Assembly: GCA_946535985.1 (NCBI GenBank)
Contig: CAMNDY010000001.1
Location: forward strand, 1-64,000
DNA: 64,000 bases
Origin: an uncultured Treponema sp.
Lineage (GTDB): Bacteria; Spirochaetota; Spirochaetia; Treponematales; Treponemataceae
Reading direction: 5' to 3'
Shown: positions 2,705-48,232 of the stretch, in pieces
Layout: every line of letters starts with the position of its first letter
How positions within the stretch are numbered: position 1 is the first letter of the stretch
Translations under genes and position numbers: made by a program
The notes under the pieces: generated by a model
Database searches by the model: none
What the model was told of the DNA's origin: nothing
The model's input: only the letters and a program-made list of their open reading frames with translations

Positions 2705-2710
2705 TATAAA

Positions 2711-2788
2711 AAATTTGGATGGGCGGCGTATCCATCATATCAGGTTCCCTTTCGGGAGCGCAGGGTGCCTTTCCTGCTCGTCAAATTT
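2711..2788. other. Predicted multi-branched RNA-like element
   Basis: A closing stem AAATTTG/CAAATTT encloses three hairpins: GATGG/CCATC with a 9-nt loop, TTCCC/GGGA(G) with a TTTC tetraloop, and CAGG/CCTG with an 8-nt loop. Read on the minus strand the middle hairpin carries a GAAA tetraloop. The element sits between two convergent genes, downstream of both. It does not match tRNA, SRP RNA or tmRNA as I know them. It could be a small RNA, a 3'-UTR structure or a repeat unit. Confidence 0.4.
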
Positions 2789-2821
2789 CAATTACATTAT
2801 TACAATGAAATATCAGTTTTG

Positions 2822-3212: not shown

Positions 3213-3617
3213 TTACTCCCACATCAGCTGCAGCCCGTTTTCTTCATACTGTTGGAACTTTTCGTCTTTACTGATTAGCACAAGGTTGTTTCGGATTGCC
3301 TGCTGAATGAGCATTCTGTCAAAAGGGTCGTGATGATTTTCTTTTTTAGGAATCTGGCCTATTGCCAGATAATCATAGGGGTCTGGATTTAGTATGGAAA
3401 AATCATATTGTTCTGCAATATGCGGAAGGTGTAGAATATTAATTTTTCCAAGGTTAAGTTTTTTGTTCTGATATTTTATTGCCATTTCCCAAAAACTTAT
3501 GGGACTCATGTATATTTGACTTTCATCATTGCAGAGAATCTTCATTACTTTTTTAGCAATTTTTTCTGGCTCCATTATAAACCAAAGAAAAACATGGGTA
3601 TCAATTAAGTATTTCAT
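3213..3617 (-). CDS. PIN-domain toxin (VapC-like ribonuclease)
   Basis: 134 aa. It starts MKYLIDTHVFLWF, placing the first metal-binding Asp at residue 6. The middle shows SFWEMAIK (Glu of the acidic site) and DPFDRMLIQQA (the conserved DPFDR.L..QA signature), followed by LVLISKDEKF. These are the hallmarks of the PIN family that cleaves RNA with Mg2+ or Mn2+. A strong GGGGGAG ribosome-binding site precedes the ATG. The gene follows its presumed antitoxin by 19 nt, the usual order for a type II toxin-antitoxin operon. Confidence 0.88.
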   Translation of the reverse strand: MKYLIDTHVFLWFIMEPEKIAKKVMKILCNDESQIYMSPISFWEMAIKYQNKKLNLGKINILHLPHIAEQYDFSILNPDPYDYLAIGQIPKKENHHDPFDRMLIQQAIRNNLVLISKDEKFQQYEENGLQLMWE

Positions 3618-3636
3618 TATTTCTCCCCCAAGTTGC

Positions 3637-3891
3637 TTACATTAAATCATCCATATTATCAAAAAGCCATTCAGGAGTTATTTCAAAATTTTCATCTTCC
3701 CAATATGGTCCATAATCTTTATAAAGTCCGGGAATACGTTTTTTTTTCTTGGGTTTTTCCATAATCTGCGTAAGCTGTGCCACAGGCTTTTTTGCACGGC
3801 CATAAAGAATCTGAACTTCTTCACCCTGCATAACCTTATCCAAAACCGAGGAAAACTGTGCTTTAAATTCACCTACTGTCATTTGTATCAT
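3637..3891 (-). CDS. Phd/YefM-family antitoxin
   Basis: 84 aa. The N-terminus (TVGEFKAQFSSVLDKVMQGEEV) is the Phd/YefM DNA-binding fold; residues 30-45 read 'YGRAKKPVAQL' as in many family members. The C-terminal half, including a run of Lys and a 'W...NMDDL' tail, would wrap the PIN toxin. The ATG is only 6 nt past a near-consensus -10 box and lacks a Shine-Dalgarno, so the mRNA is probably leaderless. A palindrome in the promoter spacer is a plausible autoregulatory operator. Confidence 0.85.
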   Translation of the reverse strand: MIQMTVGEFKAQFSSVLDKVMQGEEVQILYGRAKKPVAQLTQIMEKPKKKKRIPGLYKDYGPYWEDENFEITPEWLFDNMDDLM

Positions 3892-6765: not shown

Positions 6766-7638
6766 CTACAACATCCTTGTATTTTTTTTATATTCTTCAA
6801 AGCCTGACTTGCGGGCTTGATGTTTGTCGGCCATTGGGATGCTTACAAAAAGGAACATGAGTGTGTTTACAGCAGCTCCTGCTAAAAGCAAGCAGGGGCC
6901 ACCTGTTGCAATCACGCTTGCAAATCCAATTCCCCACCACATGAGAATTTCGCAGGCATAGTTTGGATGGCGCGATTTTTTCCAAAGACCTGTCTGAATA
7001 AAACCTCCGGCTCCTGAGTTTCTGAAACGGTGCATCTGAATATCTGCAAGACCCTGAAAAACGGTTGCTGTAAAACACAAGGCAATAAAGGCCAGACAGA
7101 GAGGTTTGAAGGCGGCTCCCTGAACAATAGCTGTAACAGCCGGAAGCACACATAAATACACTACCAAAGTTGGAAACATGTGTATGCCAAGAAAATTAAT
7201 CAGCGGGTATGCGGGGCCGGTTTTTTCTTTGAGCATCAAATAGCGCCAGTCCTGATATTCAAAGCTTTTAAAATTGTAAATCCAGTTGCCTGTGAGTCTT
7301 AGTGCCCAGAAAAGCACTGCCGCAAAAAGAAGCCAGCCTAGTAAAGTTACGCCTGTTCCGTTTGCATTCATTTTTGAAATTGCAAGGGCAAGAATAACAG
7401 GTGGCTGAACACTCCAATATGGATCATAAACCGAAGCATTGCGGAAAATCAAACTAAAGATGAAAACTAAAATTGTAGCAGCAATATCGGCAAGAAGAAG
7501 TGAAAGCCGGAAAGAAGACTGTCCCTCGCCGGCAGAAAATTTTCCCTCAAAAAAATCATAAGTAAAAAGGCCGCATAAAACTGCAAGGACGTAAATAAAA
7601 ATAATTACAGCAAGAGCTGCATACCTGTTCTTTATCAT
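6766..7638 (-). CDS. DUF1295 / steroid 5-alpha-reductase-like membrane protein
   Basis: 290 aa with about seven hydrophobic segments. Family features are 'VYDPYWSVQPPVI' and 'LRLTGNWIYNFKSFEYQDWRY' in the first half, and 'HRFRNSGAGGFIQTGLWKKSRHPNYACEILMWWGIG' in the second. The latter resembles the NADPH-binding end of 5-alpha-reductase and ICMT-like enzymes. The natural substrate of DUF1295 proteins is not established. The ATG is 6 nt from a -10 box shared in mirror image with tatD and has no Shine-Dalgarno. Confidence 0.83.
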   Translation of the reverse strand: MIKNRYAALAVIIFIYVLAVLCGLFTYDFFEGKFSAGEGQSSFRLSLLLADIAATILVFIFSLIFRNASVYDPYWSVQPPVILALAISKMNANGTGVTLLGWLLFAAVLFWALRLTGNWIYNFKSFEYQDWRYLMLKEKTGPAYPLINFLGIHMFPTLVVYLCVLPAVTAIVQGAAFKPLCLAFIALCFTATVFQGLADIQMHRFRNSGAGGFIQTGLWKKSRHPNYACEILMWWGIGFASVIATGGPCLLLAGAAVNTLMFLFVSIPMADKHQARKSGFEEYKKNTRML

Positions 7639-7644
7639 AGAAGT

Positions 7645-7684
7645 ATGCTATCAGATTGAAACTTATTTTTCAATCTGATAGCAT
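7645..7684. promoter_or_regulatory. Symmetrical bidirectional promoter (40-bp palindrome)
   Basis: Perfect 17-bp arms (ATGCTATCAGATTGAAA and its complement) around the 6-nt loop CTTATT. Each strand reads TTGAAA, 17 nt, TAGCAT, and then exactly 6 nt to an ATG: 7691 on the plus strand and 7638 on the minus strand. One palindrome therefore supplies complete, overlapping promoters for two divergent leaderless genes. Confidence 0.8.
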
Positions 7685-7690
7685 TGCTTT

Positions 7691-8578
7691 ATGTTTTCGG
7701 ATACACACTTTCACTTTAAGATGATGACAGAAGAACGCGGAGTCGATGGTGTTGATACTCTTTCAACAATGGCCACCCGCAATTGCTTTTTTGGACTTGA
7801 TATTGGAACTAAGGCCGGGGACCTTGCAGGCCGTCAGCTTGCTGTAGAAAAATGCATTGCAGCAATTTCTGATTCCCGCCTTGCAGACAAAGTCCGCAGT
7901 TTTATGTATTTTACCGCCGGAATCTGGCCCGATGTAGAAAGTATTAAAGACCGTGAAAATCAGATGAAAATCCTGCGGGAATCTGTCCTTGCTGCTGCAA
8001 AGGACCAAGATCAGGACACTCTGCATCGCCGTGTAATTGCAATTGGTGAGTGTGGACTGGACCATCACTGGAATCCTTCTGGTGCCGACGGCCGCTGTGA
8101 AGATGATTTTGACGAGCAGATTTTTCGTGGAGAACGAGAACTTTTCCAGGCACAGATTGAACTTGCCCGTGAGCTTAATCTTCCTGTAATTGTTCACAGC
8201 CGTGATGCCTACGAAGACACCCTGGACTGTATAAAAAACTGCGGCTACGACAAGGGGATTATTCACTGCTACAGTTACGGAATTGAAGAAGCCCGAAGCT
8301 TCCTTGACCGCGGTTGGTACATTGCCCTTGGCGGCGGCATAACCTACACAAAAAAATCAAAACTGGAAGCAATGGAAGAACTTATCCGCTTTATTCCTCA
8401 AGACCGCCTGCTCACAGAAACAGATGCTCCATACCTGGCACCGGTTCCTTTCCGCGGACAAGCCAACACCCCGGTTTTAGTAGAGCATGTATTTAATTAC
8501 CTTGCAAAGGTCAGAGGACTTTCGCTAGAGGCTTTAAACTCTCTTGTTGATGAAAATATAAAGAGGCTTTTTTTCTAA
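7691..8578 (+). CDS. tatD: TatD-family metal-dependent deoxyribonuclease
   Basis: 295 aa. The metallo-hydrolase motifs are in order: DTHFHF at the N-terminus (HxH), IGECGLDHHW, PVIVHSRDA, GIIHCYSYG, and TETDAPYLAPVPFRG near the C-terminus. Family members are 3'-5' DNA/RNA exonucleases or quality-control hydrolases in the cytosol. Residues 12-75 carry more sequence than the common 260-aa form ('TEERGVDGVDTLSTMATRN'). Translation appears to start at the first nucleotides of the transcript. Confidence 0.9.
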   Translation: MFSDTHFHFKMMTEERGVDGVDTLSTMATRNCFFGLDIGTKAGDLAGRQLAVEKCIAAISDSRLADKVRSFMYFTAGIWPDVESIKDRENQMKILRESVLAAAKDQDQDTLHRRVIAIGECGLDHHWNPSGADGRCEDDFDEQIFRGERELFQAQIELARELNLPVIVHSRDAYEDTLDCIKNCGYDKGIIHCYSYGIEEARSFLDRGWYIALGGGITYTKKSKLEAMEELIRFIPQDRLLTETDAPYLAPVPFRGQANTPVLVEHVFNYLAKVRGLSLEALNSLVDENIKRLFF

Positions 8579-13948: not shown

Positions 13949-14006
13949 AGATTCCCGGGTCAAGCCCGGGAATGACATGTCATTGTCGGGCTTGACCCGA
14001 CAATCT
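13949..14006. repeat. Head-to-head pair of palindromic repeat units
   Basis: Unit 1 (13949-13977) has arms ATTCCCGGG/CCCGGGAAT; unit 2 (13978-14006), in reverse orientation, has arms ATTGTCGGG/CCCGACAAT. The pair directly follows gpmI and ends just before the methyltransferase gene. It may serve as a transcript-end structure. Confidence 0.8.
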
Positions 14007-26022: not shown

Positions 26023-26118
26023 AGATTCCCGGGTCAAGCCCGGGAATGACAAGGCTGTAGTGTCATTGTCGGGCTTGACAAAAGTAGGGTGTCATTGTCG
26101 GGCTTGACCCGACAATCT
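26023..26118. repeat. Array of palindromic repeat units, one truncated
   Basis: Unit 1 (GATTCCCGGG...CCCGGGAATGACA), a truncated unit (TGTCATTGTCGGGCTTGACA with no right arm), then a full unit TGTCATTGTCGGG...CCCGACAATCT. The array fills the whole gap between asnA and the next gene. Confidence 0.82.
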
Positions 26119-29685: not shown

Positions 29686-29788
29686 TGCATATGAAAAAAT
29701 GCGGAGCGTGATTTTGTGTTTTGCGGAACGTCCTCTTCCCTTAGTGGAGCAAAACACAAAATCACACGGGAGCATTTTTTCATATGCA
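29686..29788. repeat. 103-bp two-step palindrome
   Basis: Outer arms TGCATATGAAAAAATGC (29686-29702) and its exact complement (29772-29788). Inner arms GTGATTTTGTGTTTTGC (29708-29724) and its exact complement (29749-29765). The arms are separated by 5- and 6-nt bulges around a 24-nt loop. There is no T tract and no ORF. Like the element at 20.2 kb, it is a large intergenic hairpin. Confidence 0.85.
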
Positions 29789-47522: not shown

Positions 47523-48140
47523 ATGTCAGACAAAGAAAACGAAACTAAAGAAGAAGAAAAGGTAGACGCTGCAACAGACTCTTCGACAGGTTCAGAAACC
47601 CAGGAAGGCGCAGATACAGCAGCTGCTGCAGACTCACAGGCTCAGGATCAGGCTTCTGAAGAAAAGGAGCTTTCTCCCGAAGAAAAGATTGCTGCCCTTG
47701 AAAAAGAAATTGCAGATCTTAAGACTCAGGCACTTTACAAGGCTGCCGAAAACGACAACTGGCGTAAGCGCATGATGCAGCAGAAAGACGAAGCTGTTGC
47801 TTATGCAAATGCATCTCTTTTGGGCGATTTGCTCGATAGTCTGGACAACTTTGACCGTACTCTTGATGCTGCAAAAGATGCAAAGGATGCAAAATCAATT
47901 GCAGACGGCATTAAGATGATTAACAAGTCGCTTGTTAAGATGCTCGAAGATAAATATGGTCTTGTAAGCTACGGAAAAGAAGGCGATGAGTTTAATCCAG
48001 AAGAGCACGAAGCAATCGGCCGTCAGGAAGACGAAAAAGCAAAGAAAGAAACTCTGGCTCAGGTATATCTTAAGGGATATAAACTGAAGGATAAGGTAAT
48101 AAGACATGCTAAGGTAATGGTTAAGGTACCGAAGGCATAA
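47523..48140 (+). CDS. grpE: GrpE nucleotide exchange factor
   Basis: 205 aa from the ATG at 47523 (GAGAAGTG site); the track starts at a GTG 12 nt upstream. An acidic, Ala/Glu-rich N-terminus precedes a coiled-coil (EEKIAALEKEIADLKTQALYKAAENDNWRKRM) and the beta domain (YGKEGDEFNPEEHEAIG...LKDKVIRHAKVMVKVPK). It promotes ADP release from DnaK. It is the first gene of the canonical chaperone set. Upstream there is a TTGACG and one TTGCACTC half-site but no full CIRCE element. Confidence 0.93.
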   Translation: MSDKENETKEEEKVDAATDSSTGSETQEGADTAAAADSQAQDQASEEKELSPEEKIAALEKEIADLKTQALYKAAENDNWRKRMMQQKDEAVAYANASLLGDLLDSLDNFDRTLDAAKDAKDAKSIADGIKMINKSLVKMLEDKYGLVSYGKEGDEFNPEEHEAIGRQEDEKAKKETLAQVYLKGYKLKDKVIRHAKVMVKVPKA

Positions 48141-48208
48141 GTCATCCTCGGGCTTGACCCGGGGATCTCAATAAAAAATAGATTGTCGGGTCAAGCCCGA
48201 CAATGACA
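48141..48208. repeat. Two palindromic repeat units between grpE and dnaK
   Basis: Unit 1 (48141-48169) is degenerate (GTCATCCTCGGG...CCCGGGGATCT). Unit 2 (48180-48208) is a clean GATTGTCGGG...CCCGACAATGACA in the opposite orientation. They lie within what should be a chaperone operon. Confidence 0.82.
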
Positions 48209-48232
48209 TAGGTATAAAGCGAGGTAAATAAA

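Follow-up and report, generated by a model that had tools for sequence, protein, structure and literature searches.

Two divergent genes of an uncultured Treponema species (assembly GCA_946535985.1) are separated by a perfect dyad that reads as a complete sigma-70-type promoter on each strand, and symmetry of this kind recurs, with different letters, at one gene pair in other Treponema lineages. Two things are unusual here: the promoters are complete and mirror each other perfectly, and such symmetry recurs at a single pair. We lean towards the explanation that the two genes have overlapping leaderless promoters, that such promoters have repeatedly been made alike within the genus by inverted copying, and that a gene for a DUF1295 membrane protein was inserted at this locus. 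The dyad lies within the first 64,000 nucleotides of contig CAMNDY010000001.1 (hereafter, the window; Table 1). The source genome is that of a gut Treponema close to T. bryantii, and the named relatives come from ruminant and other gut samples; the genomes compared were mostly metagenome bins.

Table 1. Features of the locus and other elements of the window
Feature	Position	Strand	Remarks
Rfam skipping-rope RNA	2710-2789	-	RF02924, 61 bits
Candidate toxin-antitoxin pair	3213-3891	-	134-aa PIN/VapC-like protein (weak NCBIfam match, below cut-off), 84-aa gene upstream
p134, Treponema protein, 134 aa	6361-6765	-	Usual divergent partner of tatD
DUF1295 membrane protein, 290 aa	6766-7638	-	PF06966, E 2.2e-37; leaderless start predicted
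Perfect dyad, 40 bp	7645-7684		17-bp arms ATGCTATCAGATTGAAA / TTTCAATCTGATAGCAT flank the 6-nt loop CTTATT
Leftward promoter (predicted)	7645-7673	-	TTGAAA (7673-7668), 17 nt, TGA-TAGCAT (7650-7645)
Rightward promoter (predicted)	7656-7684	+	TTGAAA (7656-7661), 17 nt, TGA-TAGCAT (7679-7684)
tatD, TatD-family metal-dependent nuclease, 295 aa	7691-8578	+	PF01026, E 7.4e-54; leaderless start predicted
Dispersed hairpin repeat TGTCATTGTCGGGCTTGACCCGACAAT	13949-14006; 26033-26079; 48138-48210
Stem-repeat family (GCGAGATTTTGCCTTTTGC-like)	29708-29765		Near-perfect 17-19 bp stems, 24-26 nt loops; also at C3:13772-13833 and C3:51273-51334

RESULTS

A perfect dyad between two divergent genes

The initial annotation, which was made from the letters of the window, described a 40-bp palindrome with 17-bp arms that reads TTGAAA-N17-TAGCAT on both strands, with each ATG exactly 6 nt past the -10 element. 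The palindrome is exact to the base, a promoter scan found this motif on the + and - strands, with a TG at the extended -10 position in both, and the 6-nt distance is correct on each side. From left to right, positions 7636 to 7693 consist of CAT (7636-7638), AGAAGT, ATGCTATCAGATTGAAA (7645-7661), CTTATT, TTTCAATCTGATAGCAT (7668-7684), TGCTTT and ATG (7691-7693). The arms are 100% complementary, and each comprises one promoter's -10 and the opposite promoter's -35. Two properly spaced -35/-10 pairs on opposite strands, as in overlapping divergent sigma-70 promoters, are accommodated in 40 bp, although the -10 hexamer TAGCAT agrees with the consensus at only four of six positions.

The -10 elements would place +1 on the start codon on both sides, and a Shine-Dalgarno-like site was found between the -10 and the ATG on neither. 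From the 6-nt spacing, the +1 positions are predicted to be the A of the tatD ATG for the rightward promoter and the A of the DUF1295 ATG for the leftward promoter; these predicted starts are 53 bp apart, and 28 bp lie between the two separate -10 hexamers. The start codons are credible, since the N-termini match those of relatives: MFSDTH is present in all eight aligned TatD relatives, and the DUF1295 protein begins with MIKNR/MIKKR, as it does in relatives in which its gene has a Shine-Dalgarno start of its own.

The symmetry of the dyad is far above the chance level. When the 52-nt intergenic region was shuffled 5000 times, the longest perfect inverted repeat was 12 bp and a 17-bp repeat never appeared. 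A repeat search placed the dyad within a 26-nt inverted repeat (85% complementary) that extends from ATG to ATG, and single-strand DNA folding was very stable (z = -7.5; 0 of 200 shuffles equally good). Such a hairpin could chiefly be a terminator, an insulator or a cruciform element in which the promoter matches are incidental, and a scan did flag a terminator-like stem on the + strand. The hairpin, however, lies upstream of both genes and would consequently be in neither mRNA; its T-tract is weak (TGCTTT), the distance from -10 to ATG fits the leaderless norm on both sides, and the same promoters are present in relatives that lack the hairpin. We regard this reading as very improbable. An Rfam search gave no match at the dyad.

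Perfect 17-bp arms around a 6-nt centre also resemble the site of a dimeric regulator, and operators frequently overlap divergent promoters. The palindrome could then be an operator, with embedded promoters, at which both genes are jointly repressed or activated. An operator should either be conserved from one orthologous locus to the next or have further copies in the genome, but the arms differ in all relatives except the sister genome G026, varying even among close relatives that keep the gene pair (TTTCAATCTGATAGCAT, AAATCTGATATACT, TTTCTATAAT), and many relatives lack the dyad. In this genome's assembly, the 17-mer occurs once and every other match has 3 mismatches; a regulon operator was rejected for lack of a second site. 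The arms, moreover, end at the -10 hexamers and are accounted for by the core promoter elements plus 5 nt, and no regulator gene was found adjoining the dyad. An operator is thus an unlikely explanation.

Predicted leaderless starts in the genome and the genus

Leaderless (TA-led) genes of bacteria have a TANNNT motif approximately 12 bp before the start codon and no Shine-Dalgarno sequence, and Spirochaetes are listed among the phyla with such genes, at an average of 3.9% (range 1.8-6.9) (Zheng et al. 2011, PMC3160421). We sampled approximately 417 kb of this genome as stretches and, taking the first ATG as the start codon by rule, examined 309 ORFs. A Shine-Dalgarno sequence alone was present in 172, a -10 element alone at 4-9 nt in 54, and both in 1; the spacing of the 54 was 6 nt in 25 and 7 nt in 13. 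This nearly exclusive division, together with the peak at 6-7 nt, is what would be expected of true leaderless genes. In contrast to the published survey, a -10 lies 4-9 nt before the first ATG (most commonly 6 nt) in approximately 17% of the sampled genes by our cruder test, and two leaderless starts are predicted on one dyad.

Across the genus, a TATAAT-like hexamer precedes the tatD ATG by 5-10 nt in 63 of 80 Treponema TatD loci (by 6 or 7 nt in 56), and p134, for which no Pfam or NCBIfam family match was found, is predicted to be leaderless in most of the genus loci read, regardless of its neighbour. The prediction for both genes holds whether or not the two adjoin. Leaderless starts are accordingly predicted to be ordinary in this genome; for tatD and p134, the same is predicted through a large part of the genus. 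The initial annotation had taken both starts beside the dyad for leaderless, and their 6-nt spacing, which is the mode of the genome, and the lack of a Shine-Dalgarno sequence give them that appearance. Its further proposal, that a single dyad sets both promoters and both translation starts, agrees with the presence of two full overlapping promoters; yet since leaderless spacing is common genome-wide, the 6-nt distance is the usual value and not a property of the dyad, and the promoters look like ordinary leaderless promoters turned into mirror copies. A literature search returned nothing on leaderless promoters in Treponema and nothing on symmetrical leaderless divergent promoters.

Symmetry of the promoter pair among relatives

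The comparison covered 21 loci from different Treponema genomes; tatD directly adjoins a divergent p134 at these loci, except in the window, where the two genes flank the same promoter. We aligned the promoter pairs of these intergenic regions at the -10 elements and scored 16 nt of one arm against the other. The arms matched at 16 positions in the window (and G026) and in T. bryantii XBD1002, at 14 in G136a and G008, and at 13 in G173, whereas the remaining loci scored 6-11. Mean matching was 9.7 of 16 within a locus versus 8.0 of 16 across loci, and partner-shuffling permutation over the 21 loci gave P of about 0.0002 (P ≤ 0.0032 after dropping any single palindromic locus). With the comparison restricted to 10 nt upstream of the -10, the arms were still matched within loci (21 loci, P = 0.0005). 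In the 19-locus set without T. bryantii XBD1002, matching was significant for intergenic regions of up to 70 nt (P = 0.001) but not for longer ones (P = 0.36). Two consensus promoters that had converged by chance in a short A+T-rich spacer would show a certain likeness, the promoter consensus alone yielding about 8 of 16 matches between unrelated arms; 13 matches or more, however, were reached by 1.9% of cross-species pairings as against 5 of the 21 loci, and the permutation test and the shuffles described above likewise disfavour chance, so that we give this account very little credence.

The arms differ by lineage (TTTCAATCTGATAGCAT, AAATCTGATATACT, TTTCTATAAT, CTGCTATAAT, TCTAAAATCATTATACT), and the symmetrical state requires at least three changes on the TatD tree. 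The permutation tests and the tree together give the pattern of inverted-arm homogenization, in which arms are alike within a lineage and unlike between lineages. The initial annotation had proposed a comparison of the palindrome in related genomes, and had taken its decay there, with both genes still expressed, as a refutation. Symmetry does recur in relatives, but the letters differ, and many relatives with the same pair are unsymmetrical; in many, the palindrome is degraded in sequence while both predicted promoters persist, and symmetry is therefore not required for the arrangement.

G136a (L164) has a symmetrical pair of its own, TAGAAA-17-TATAAT on both strands over a span of 33 bp. Set against the p134 arms of G136b, G132 and G019, its tatD arm is the same at 12-13 of 16 positions, with no exact parent sequence among those compared, and the tatD arms of the latter three genomes (TTACAATAGACT) are quite unlike it. 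A tatD arm that resembles the p134 arms of its neighbours is what would be expected had it been copied from p134. The bin concerned (MAG RGIG9695; L164, L167) contains two tatD/p134 versions, one palindromic and the other not, which are either paralogues or the product of a mixed bin.

In T. bryantii XBD1002, the 17-mer TCTAAAATCATTATACT precedes both tatD and p134 and was found nowhere else with fewer than two mismatches. The tatD/p134 spacer of this strain (L232; 263 nt upstream of the TatD start at 2501) forms an imperfect inverted repeat over its whole length; the arms are approximately 107 nt long and end at both predicted leaderless promoters, with TCTAAAATCATTATACT at their outer ends. 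Since 249 bp separate the symmetrical arms, symmetry in this case does not imply overlap. The length of the repeat and an outer 17-mer confined to this spacer point to a local inverted duplication, not a dispersed element; a mobile hairpin element at the spacer is less probable. The dispersed hairpin repeat listed in Table 1 has also entered the tatD/p134 spacers of L167, L168 and L169, where it separates the two promoters.

We further considered that the symmetry might be held by selection for equal output of both genes, through point mutations only and with no inverted copying. Both genes appear to retain leaderless promoters, and within-locus arm matching would also be expected from balance. 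The matching nevertheless reaches positions between the -10 and the -35 without a known role, as the 10-nt comparison indicates, the inverted similarity in XBD1002 spans approximately 107 nt, and the promoters are unmatched in most relatives that have the pair, which argues that equality is not generally required. We consider this explanation improbable in its pure form, if slightly less so than an operator, and selection for balanced output is still a serious alternative or a contributing factor.

Self-complementarity beyond that of shuffled sequences was found in 9 of 21 tatD/p134 regions versus 3 of 26 other divergent regions (P = 0.02), a weak comparison in which species are mixed and some long regions contain hairpin repeats. 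Within this genome, inverted repeats were not enriched in divergent regions (4/27) compared with co-directional ones (12/65), and the process is accordingly documented for one gene pair. One more candidate is a second divergent pair of the same genome (C4:43366-43466), which has near-perfect inverted arms (ATTATACTATATTTTCGG / CCGATAATATAGTATAAT; 1 mismatch in 18) and ordinary leaders.

Gene order and history of the locus

In the window and in the sister genome G026, p134 is separated from the dyad by the DUF1295 gene, which uses the side of the promoter that belongs to p134. Leftward from the dyad, the window has DUF1295, p134 and a radical-SAM activase-like gene. There, the DUF1295 stop codon (TAG) directly abuts the p134 ATG, and an AAGG-type site within the DUF1295 gene probably serves for the translation of p134. 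G136a (L075/L164), the p134 and TatD of which are 95.5% and 88% identical to those of the window, is without DUF1295. In other genomes DUF1295 is found in a different gene setting, and its closest relatives beyond the sister genome mostly carry Shine-Dalgarno leaders of the GGAGTT type upstream (four with a readable start, L053-L056). Judging from this gene order, DUF1295 appears to have taken over the promoter and leaderless start of p134, which became the downstream gene.

The dyad spacer is identical to that of G026 at 52 of 52 positions; this was rejected as a sign of selection, since conservation of the neighbouring spacers is almost as high (27/27, 67/68 and 105/110). In G008 (L165/L084), TatD is 86% but p134 just 63% identical to the window protein, indicating that the two flanks of the palindrome differ in history. 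Recombination has probably broken the locus at or close to the dyad, the same place at which DUF1295 entered in the lineage of the window.

DISCUSSION

According to the explanation that we favour, two housekeeping-type (sigma-70-like, extended -10) promoters would stand back to back and overlap completely, each -35 lying within the spacer of the opposite promoter, and RNA polymerase would occupy one direction at a time. Complete overlap of this kind suggests, from its geometry and by analogy with published systems (PMC12825309, PMC5333194), that the polymerases should exclude each other. Transcription would start at the A of each ATG and produce two leaderless mRNAs. The core promoters would be of equal strength, and the balance between the genes would be set by occupancy with no repressor.

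Promoters that are mirror copies would have arisen when an inverted copy of one replaced the other; the most plausible route is template switching by the polymerase between imperfectly matched inverted repeats, and such copying would have recurred between tatD and its divergent partner within Treponema. A single template-switch (quasipalindrome) mutation homogenizes the two arms of a short inverted repeat (PMC8604942, PMC7202029, PMC8794818), and this process would be expected to leave arms that are alike in each lineage but unlike from one lineage to another (PMC8604942). The published cases concern coding DNA, RNA hairpins or reporters, whereas the arms here would be two divergent promoters. 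We infer this mechanism, and the direction and timing of the copying, from the comparison of relatives. In the common ancestor of G026 and the window species, DUF1295 would have come to lie between the dyad and p134, adopting the promoter and its leaderless start, and p134 would then have become the second gene of a DUF1295 operon.

The bidirectional promoters described by Warman et al. have one -10 that is read on both strands, with starts 7-25 bp apart, commonly 18, 10 or 23 (PMC12825309; PMC10268837). The dyad is comparable in its symmetrical DNA, its divergent transcription, which can yield two mRNAs, and the exclusion of one polymerase by the binding of the other, the last two being predicted here. 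It differs in having two -10 elements, -35 elements inside the opposite promoter and more widely spaced predicted starts, and its symmetry is exact across the 17-bp arms where theirs is pseudo-symmetrical; it is thus not a bidirectional promoter in their sense. The basal activity of natural bidirectional promoters was reported by these authors to be too low for competition unless one side was strengthened, and competition at the dyad may accordingly count only at high activity. The EcoRV restriction-modification promoters resemble the dyad in that two full promoters point in opposite directions and their RNA polymerase sites overlap; their transcription is coupled and controlled by the C protein, the transcript of which is not leaderless (PMC5333194). 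Unlike in that system, no controller gene was found adjoining the dyad.

A broader proposal, which we put forward tentatively and hold with less than even confidence, is that divergent promoter pairs evolve in concert: template switching would repeatedly overwrite one promoter with the inverted other, a gene newly set next to a leaderless promoter could gain a promoter and a start in one step, and equal strength would be obtained without a regulator. If this is right, symmetry of divergent promoters can stem from mutational copying without being an operator or a selected design, and the same copying step could supply a promoter to a newly arrived gene. The tatD/p134 locus forms a natural series of symmetrical, partly symmetrical and unsymmetrical forms of one pair, and this series is suited to the direct measurement of polymerase competition at two identical promoters.
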